A stretch of 64,000 nucleotides of DNA, taken from assembly GCF_000255135.1 (NCBI RefSeq), contig NC_016751.1:1798001-1862000 (forward strand), read 5' to 3'. Under the pieces are notes generated by a model. It was not told the DNA's origin. It did not search any database and worked only from the letters and a program-made list of their open reading frames with translations. A program made the translations under genes and the position numbers. Numbering within the stretch: the first letter of the stretch is position 1; each line of letters opens with the position of its first letter. The DNA comes from Marinitoga piezophila KA3. GTDB lineage: Bacteria; Thermotogota; Thermotogae; Petrotogales; Petrotogaceae. Positions 21,618 through 63,476 of this stretch are shown in pieces.

Positions 21618-21693
21618 ATATTATAAAAATGAATTAGGTTGTCCAATAATTAAAAACACTCAAACCTTGATTGCTAATCTTCAAAAATTAATT

Positions 21694-21722
21694 AAAGTCA
21701 ACCTCAGGGTTGGCTTTTTTAT
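21694..21722 (+). terminator. intrinsic terminator after the ion transporter
   Basis: AAAGTCAACC (21694-21703) pairs with GGTTGGCTTT (21708-21717; one T-G wobble), 4-nt loop, then TTTTT. Confidence 0.8.
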
Positions 21723-62644: not shown

Positions 62645-62700
62645 TAAAACAAAAGAAGTCCGCTTCACTAATTTTGGTGAAGCGGACTTCTTTTGTTTTA
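62645..62700. terminator. very long terminator hairpin after the glutaredoxin gene
   Basis: A 24-bp perfect stem (62645-62668 with 62677-62700; core GAAGTCCGCTTCAC), 8-nt loop, A-rich left and T-rich right arm. It insulates the glutaredoxin transcript from the RNA region that follows. Confidence 0.88.
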
Positions 62701-62704
62701 GGTT

Positions 62705-62733
62705 TTGACATTGAAGAAATTTTGTAGTATAAT
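62705..62733 (+). promoter_or_regulatory. full-consensus promoter upstream of a gene-free region
   Basis: TTGACA (62705-62710), exactly 17 bp, TATAAT (62728-62733). The predicted transcript starts near 62740, with no convincing coding sequence downstream for over 700 bp. Confidence 0.85.
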
Positions 62734-62837
62734 TAATGTCACCTTTTTTTATAAAAGTTTGTGATGTAGAAAAAAGAAAAATAATGTTCATTCAAACAGC
62801 AAGAATTTCTGATCCTTGTTCTATAAAAAACACTCCT

Positions 62838-62886
62838 AAAAAGGTTCATTCAGGCGGTGAAATTTCAAGCCTTCATTCACCTTTTT
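62838..62886 (+). terminator. terminator-like branched hairpin
   Basis: AAAAAGGT (62838-62845) pairs with ACCTTTTT (62879-62886). Inside are AGGC/GCCT and the self-complementary TGAAATTTCA. The right arm ends in TTTTT, so it could end a short RNA started at 62740. Confidence 0.55.
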
Positions 62887-62933
62887 ACTCGTGTTTTTTA
62901 TGTTTAACTTATATAATAAAATATAATAAGAAA

Positions 62934-63300
62934 TAAGAAAATAGAAATAATAATATGAGCGAAAACTTGAAAATTCCGAAGAGAAACAACTATGATTGAG
63001 AAAAATAAAAACGAACGAAAACTCGCAGGTTGCCCGAGAAAATCACGAATGGAGGCTGTCAAAAAAACAGGATGTTTTTTTGAGCGCAGCTTCTGCAGGG
63101 ATGCAGAATCTAAGCGACAGCCGGGAATGAGTGATTTTCGAGGATCAGCAACCAAGTTGTTTGAGGGAGTTTTTATTTTTCTTAATCAACAACACAAAAG
63201 GACGAACATGGATGTGAGTCTGCAACGACCGGCGGGAACGAGAATTTTTGAGGATTAGAATTTTCTACCGTTTGAGCGATTATTATTATTTCTATTTTCG
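62934..63300 (+). ncRNA. candidate structured RNA of unknown class
   Basis: A nested fold read by eye. P1: 62937-62955 with 63281-63299, 19 bp perfect, continuing through a U-U and GAGCGA/GAGCGA to AAAC/GTTT (62966/63270). P2: 62969-62976 with 63258-63265. P3: 62994-63012 with 63169-63187, 19 bp with one G-U, continuing through GAACGA/GAGGGA to AAAC/GTTT. P4: 63028-63033 with 63148-63153. P5: 63038-63046 with 63131-63139. P6: 63054-63060 with 63116-63122. Hairpins: 63061-63081, 63091-63108 (GGGA tetraloop) and 63201-63220. Purine loops favour the plus strand. GC is above its surroundings. A mobile palindromic element is the alternative. Confidence 0.6.
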
Positions 63301-63476
63301 AAAAAAGTTTTTGATATACAAATATTTAATAGCATAAATGAATCTTTTTAAGAAGTTTTCTTGACTATATTCTTTATAAATCCTCGTTGTGGGAAATTTT
63401 TGTCTTCGTTCATTTTTATTTTTTAAGCTAAATTTTTCAATTTATATAAATAAAATCATTATTAGGGAGGGATAAG
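63301..63476. other. AT-rich leader region before the nucleoside-kinase gene
   Basis: No gene seen. 63402-63424 (GTCTTCGTTCATTTTTATTT and on) is nearly the reverse complement of 62999-63022 in the structured RNA. No convincing promoter with 17-bp spacing was found, so the downstream gene may be read from the promoter at 62705 or through the RNA element. Confidence 0.4.

Follow-up and report, generated by a model that had tools for sequence, protein, structure and literature searches.

A nested pair of high-copy, mobile repeat units in Marinitoga piezophila with a conserved fold, kinship to TwoAYGGAY and candidate CsrA sites

Background

The RNA motif TwoAYGGAY (RF01731) is known from the human gut, gamma-Proteobacteria and Clostridiales (PMC2864571), and has been an orphan motif since 2010. 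Its outer stem contains tandem-GA loops, and motif matches led Gardner and Eldai to propose TwoAYGGAY as a CsrA-binding sRNA (PMC4333381). The SELEX consensus of CsrA is RUACARGGAUGU, in which ACA and GGA are invariant and GGA is preferred in a hairpin loop (PMC4347634). Rfam types RF01731 as cis-regulatory ('Cis-reg'). No published test of the CsrA-binding proposal was found, and the open-access literature searched does not describe TwoAYGGAY as mobile or as a high-copy family.

REP/BIME elements of bacteria are mosaic, intergenic, palindromic and high-copy. The Marinitoga units described here are like REP/BIME elements with RAYT in all four respects, and unlike them in that the high-copy genomes have no Y1 transposase and the units are larger, with conserved GA loops and target-site duplications. 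They are like bacterial MITEs in being short and non-coding, with inverted ends, target-site duplications and bursts in copy number, and unlike MITEs in that compensatory change maintains a multi-branched, RNA-like fold in the body of the unit. A further likeness is to the sponge RNAs CsrB, CsrC and RsmX/Y/Z: the units have several GGA hairpins with loops that fit the CsrA consensus (PMC4347634). Unlike these RNAs, the units are dispersed and transposable, have no single dedicated gene and contain a long double-helical stem with GA loops.

Architecture of the locus

The window (the whole stretch of Marinitoga piezophila KA3 DNA that was analysed, 64,000 nucleotides) contains the following features.

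62649..62696, readable both ways: terminator-like hairpin between a glutaredoxin-like gene and the promoter-like site
62705..62733, plus strand: promoter-like site TTGACA-17-TATAAT, 12/12 for sigma-70 (consensus match only), reading into the units
62769..62922, minus strand: third unit (subfamily C), facing the nest head-to-head and with a deletion of the core between two GAAATTTC words
62934..62979, plus strand: left part of the outer unit (subfamily A), with P1 arm at 62937-62955, GAGCGA loop and P2 arm to 62977
62993..63188, plus strand: complete inner unit (subfamily B), nested in A
63067..63075, plus strand: hairpin P5, loop ACAGGAUGU (AGGA), CsrA-type site 1
63095..63104, plus strand: hairpin P6, loop GCAGGGAUGC (AGGGA), CsrA-type site 2, the GGGA loop of the preliminary description
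63199..63300, plus strand: right part of outer unit A, with hairpin, GAGGATTAG loop, P2 arm from 63259, GAGCGA loop and P1 arm at 63281-63299
63206..63215, plus strand: hairpin loop of the outer unit, ACAUGGAUGU, CsrA-type site 3
63402..63423, minus strand: piece of another unit, complementary to the left arm of B, AAAAATAAAAACGAACGAA.AC
21640..21722, minus strand: remnant of the right half of a unit in a small intergenic region, ending in a TTGGACA-type inverted repeat sequence

The plus strand of 62934-63300 folds to -121.5 kcal/mol in RNAfold, against -73.8 +/- 4.5 for shuffled sequences (z -10.6; 0 of 100 shuffles as good), whereas the minus strand folds more weakly (-103.2, z -8.3). The closing helix is 19 bp long (62937-62955 with 63281-63299), the inner helix about 20 bp (62993-63012 with 63169-63188), and the outer arms (62937-62966 and 63270-63299) are 83% complementary over 30 nt without a gap, with G-A mismatches. 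The preliminary description of this DNA, made from the sequence alone, had called the stretch gene-free and reported nested helices, three hairpins, one with a GGGA loop, and a gapless outer pairing of 30 nt if G-A pairs are allowed. Each of these was found where it had been placed, as were the GA-type internal loops, and the overlapping ORFs are short ones only. The plus strand, on which the structure had been read, is favoured by its stronger fold, by the strand-specific A(N)GGA loops and by the 12/12 sigma-70 promoter-like site upstream.

The same description had taken the big stem as the architecture of one molecule. Instead, 62934-63300 is a nest of two homologous units, in which a complete inner unit takes the place of a lost portion of the outer unit's apical domain. 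This follows from the separate occurrence of the two parts in the genome: the outer unit is found without an insert at loci L035, L009, L033 and L031, where the left apical strand lost in the window is intact, and the insert at 62993-63188, itself a complete unit, is found alone at other loci. The nested pair has seven copies in the M. piezophila genome, and the window nest is 75-98% identical to the other six. The strong fold and the lack of an Rfam match for the window copy would both suit the first reading, one large and novel structured RNA forming a class by itself; the separate occurrence of its inner and outer parts refutes that reading, homologues that match RF01731 also speak against it, and it now has hardly any credibility. 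The case carries a caution, namely that Rfam overlooks divergent copies and that nested copies may pass for one giant new RNA.

Other nestings were found as well: B lies in C at L012, L014 and L029, and flanking sequences show B in A, A in B and B in B, congeners included. The core missing from the subfamily C unit at 62769-62922 is intact in L017, L030 and L034. On the upstream side, the terminator-like hairpin is followed directly by the perfect 12/12 sigma-70 promoter-like site (62649-62733).

Copy number and mobility

A DNA search of the M. piezophila genome (2,244,793 bases in two contigs) gave 61 matches in about 30 loci, the copy count that the preliminary description had asked for, and the six other Marinitoga genomes all have DNA matches. 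With a covariance model trained on 25 core units, the window unit among them, 34 units are found in the same genome and 1-69 in the six congeners (34, 39, 5, 25, 1, 69 and 1 in G000-G006). Across 103 genomes of the phylum, the model's matches outside the genus were few, weak and confined to three genomes. The model core of the inner unit (63009-63172) scores 184 bits with this model, whose 25 training units include it.

Direct repeats of 9-16 bp flank 12/41 units at fixed offsets from the core, compared with 0.28 expected from mismatched flanks, and the unit family therefore moves as DNA, in the manner of a MITE. The target-site duplications lie mostly in congeners, L010 being the only one of the 12 units in the M. 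piezophila genome. Inverted repeats resembling TGTCYAAAAAGT form the ends of most of these units, and the eight neighbouring genes checked are ordinary, with no transposase and one tyrosine integrase gene. The terminal inverted repeats correspond to the P1 helix, which measures 19 bp in the window copy, and to TGTCYAAAAAGT ends in congeners. The flanks of the window copy hold no clear duplication, only the 6 bp AACAAC, and an exact empty site was not demonstrable in congeners, where the upstream synteny differs. A plasmid BLAST gave no match. The locus had first been described as a structured RNA or a palindromic element, and both terms hold: the helices carry compensatory changes, and the copies are dispersed, mobile and palindromic with target-site duplications. 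For the family, this last finding is the very one that the preliminary description had set against a plain structured RNA.

Units less than 500 bp apart are arranged head-to-head (minus then plus) in 7/7 Marinitoga pairs, and similar pairs occur in Clostridia. Head-to-head pairs include the window units at 62769-62922 (-) and 62934-63300 (+), and those at 1465655/1466060, 1499296/1499702, 1620077/1620366 and 2000541/2000909 of G000 C2. The pairing could represent a composite element or a divergent promoter. In one congener (G001 C1), unit orientation looks biased between the chromosome halves, mostly plus before 1.2 Mb and mostly minus from 1.25 to 1.8 Mb, which is perhaps a leading-strand orientation.

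Relation to TwoAYGGAY

When the window was searched against Rfam at gathering and at relaxed thresholds, no relevant match was returned, and the window copy (62985-63200) has no RF01731 match at E up to 10. Homologous copies in the same genome do pass the RF01731 cut-off of 43 bits: L026 (50.8), the inner unit of L028 (48.0), L036 (45.5) and L034 (43.4). The best Marinitoga scores over the full model are 50.8 in this genome and 52.2 in a congener. L028 is an 81% homologue of the whole nest, over 366 nt. The Rfam search suggested in the preliminary description is thus negative for the copy itself and positive for its homologues, and 'no recognised class' no longer describes a locus whose homologous copies match RF01731, though the window copy escapes the model. 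As judged from these sequence relationships, the window copy is a relative of TwoAYGGAY by descent, with an own score below the cut-off.

It probably misses that score through its inner loops, which read A-GGA-U and A-GGGA-U instead of AYGGAY. The consensus has CAuGGAUG in both loops. The window copy has two adjacent A(N)GGA hairpins closed by C-G (63067-63075 and 63095-63104) and has the strict AYGGAY form in the loop of the outer unit only (63206-63215). The tandem-GA loops of the outer stem are present, as GARYGA and GA/GA, with Watson-Crick pairs in their place in some units. As in TwoAYGGAY, two adjacent hairpins with CANGGANG loops end a long stem with tandem-GA loops; unlike TwoAYGGAY, the window copy is sub-threshold, nested and has AGGA/AGGGA inner loops, and the family here is mobile and high-copy. 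At least in Marinitoga, TwoAYGGAY is thereby recast as a family that transposes, is high-copy and is strongly constrained in its structure.

Conservation of the fold

When 67 distinct units are aligned to the model, two-sided changes occur in 42/56 base pairs (706 cells), whereas controls with slid partners reach at most 22 pairs or 147 cells and 0/500 shuffles do as well; standard pairs make up 89.8% of cells. In the smaller set of 25 aligned units, 264 cells are changed on both sides (0/500 shuffles). The slid control keeps the relatedness of the units, which the shuffles do not, and an alignment fitted to the structure favours that structure, although the margin is large. The tandem GA mismatch at P3 is also replaced by Watson-Crick pairs in some units. 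Substitutions across paralogues and species compensate in the helices, as the preliminary description would have it, and this supports selection on the fold.

The full alignment of 67 units contains 3242 Watson-Crick, 65 G-U and 56 A-C pairs. Since G-U is hardly commoner than A-C, these counts alone do not separate RNA from single-stranded DNA, and the comparison of G-U with A-C (65 vs 56) was set aside as an uninformative test of strand.

Candidate CsrA sites

Loops of the A(N)GGA type, the element that CsrA recognises, are kept while the stems change. Among the 67 units, the GGA is kept in 66/67 and 62/67 in the two hairpin loops, and the base after GGA varies. The unit loops match the CsrA SELEX consensus, and the nest carries three GGA hairpins that fit it. 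In the M. piezophila genome, 33/37 ACANGGAYGT sites fall within unit loci, although the genome-wide total is not enriched (37 vs 47 for the reversed control).

A canonical CsrA gene, whose product aligns with solved CsrA structures, is found some 5 kb downstream, next to a gene that is FliW-like by our own reading of the ORF. The FliW-like protein upstream of csrA (L062:1667-2647, minus strand) seemingly consists of two tandem FliW-like halves, judged by eye. csrA is present in 25/26 genomes examined, a set made up of seven Marinitoga genomes, that of one relative and eighteen to which the double-hairpin motif had led. This co-occurrence is no more than supportive, since many of these lineages carry csrA anyway, and two of the eighteen (G115 and G118) have no RF01731 match. 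The exception is the draft genome G111, which has 10 RF01731 matches and no CsrA match.

Explanations of the family

The Rfam label suggests a cis-regulatory leader, which here would serve the downstream gene (63477, +). This agrees with the 12/12 promoter-like site at 62705 and with the lack of any terminator-like site from the unit to the gene. Against it, the genes next to 46 units are oriented without bias (both antisense in 15 cases, both sense in 15, mixed in 11 and 5), and in six congeners the orthologue of the downstream gene is preceded by a different gene and by no unit. A dedicated leader is disfavoured by both of the latter findings, and we regard it as improbable. Equally mosaic, intergenic, palindromic and high-copy are REP/BIME elements, and on that ground the units might belong to the REP/BIME-like or retro-type repeats, with a RAYT (Y1) transposase or reverse transcriptase as the enzyme that moves them. 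Yet RVT_1 and Y1_Tnp (PF01797) are absent from all four high-copy Marinitoga genomes, that of M. piezophila included, and within the genus were found only in single-unit genomes; direct repeats of 9-16 bp would, in addition, better suit a DDE-type transposase. Spread by either enzyme is disfavoured by their absence from the high-copy genomes, and such an origin is very hard to credit.

A more serious alternative, which we nevertheless hold to be rather unlikely, is a MITE whose fold is selected at the DNA level only, the purine-rich strand folding during transposition or replication and being recognised by the transposase, with no part for RNA or CsrA. Nesting and high copy number would follow from mobility alone, and the target-site duplications, the inverted ends, the nearly complete Watson-Crick pairing with few G-U, the unbiased flank orientation and the head-to-head order of 7/7 close pairs all fit. 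Such a MITE does not predict that both loops keep A(N)GGA while the base following GGA is free, nor that strong CsrA-type sites are nearly confined to the units. We regard as fairly probable, from these sequence features, that the family is a non-autonomous transposon whose transcript would be a CsrA-binding decoy; that a transposon has retained an RNA-grade fold would then be accounted for by selection for CsrA binding.

In the proposed mechanism, the outer helix of a unit of about 200 nt serves as the terminal inverted repeat; the stacked helices of the unit are split by tandem-GA internal loops, and its apex is formed by two hairpins whose loops read A(N)GGA. The family moves as DNA, with target-site duplications of 9-16 bp and presumably a transposase acting in trans, and units come to lie inside units. 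Each unit would be transcribed on the GGA-loop strand, in the window probably from the promoter-like site at 62705, and its paired GGA hairpins would bind the two sites of a CsrA dimer. The transcript may then titrate CsrA as CsrB/RsmZ RNAs do, the nest offering three such hairpins. Should CsrA binding prove true, mobile elements would be a source of RNA sponges that act on a global regulator, and bacteria would have a counterpart to the functional RNA domains that derive from transposons in eukaryotes.

Occurrence beyond Marinitoga

A scan for two closely spaced CATGGATG loops led to Pseudomonas, Lachnospiraceae, Halothiobacillus and others, and many of the double-loop candidates pass RF01731, with up to 89.6 bits. 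RF01731 matches number 83 in Pseudomonas kilonensis (83 candidates scored), 52, 32 and 28 in Lachnospiraceae-type genomes and 43 in Halothiobacillus, and high copy number is thus common in the TwoAYGGAY family; the test for target-site duplications covered Marinitoga. Tentatively, TwoAYGGAY might be a phylum-spanning class of transposable CsrA decoys, whose payload would be a folded RNA that captures a global regulator of the host. If so, genomes would gain sponge RNAs by transposition and stack them by nesting.

In Lachnospiraceae-type genomes, the units at L189, L235, L241 and L242 each cap a nearly perfect hairpin of 60-110 bp, the arm sequence of which varies between copies in one genome; ordinary terminal repeats do not explain these cap hairpins. 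For Marinitoga, an origin of the outer helix from a host palindrome was set aside, since the outer arms are shared within subfamilies and ordinary inverted ends suffice. At one Lachnospiraceae locus, an IS91-type (Y2) transposase gene (L234:2679-3878, minus strand) lies between two head-to-head TwoAYGGAY units, a single case that may be a coincidence. The genome of Lachnospiraceae bacterium B94_19 (G109), with 32 RF01731 matches, encodes seven CsrA-domain proteins.
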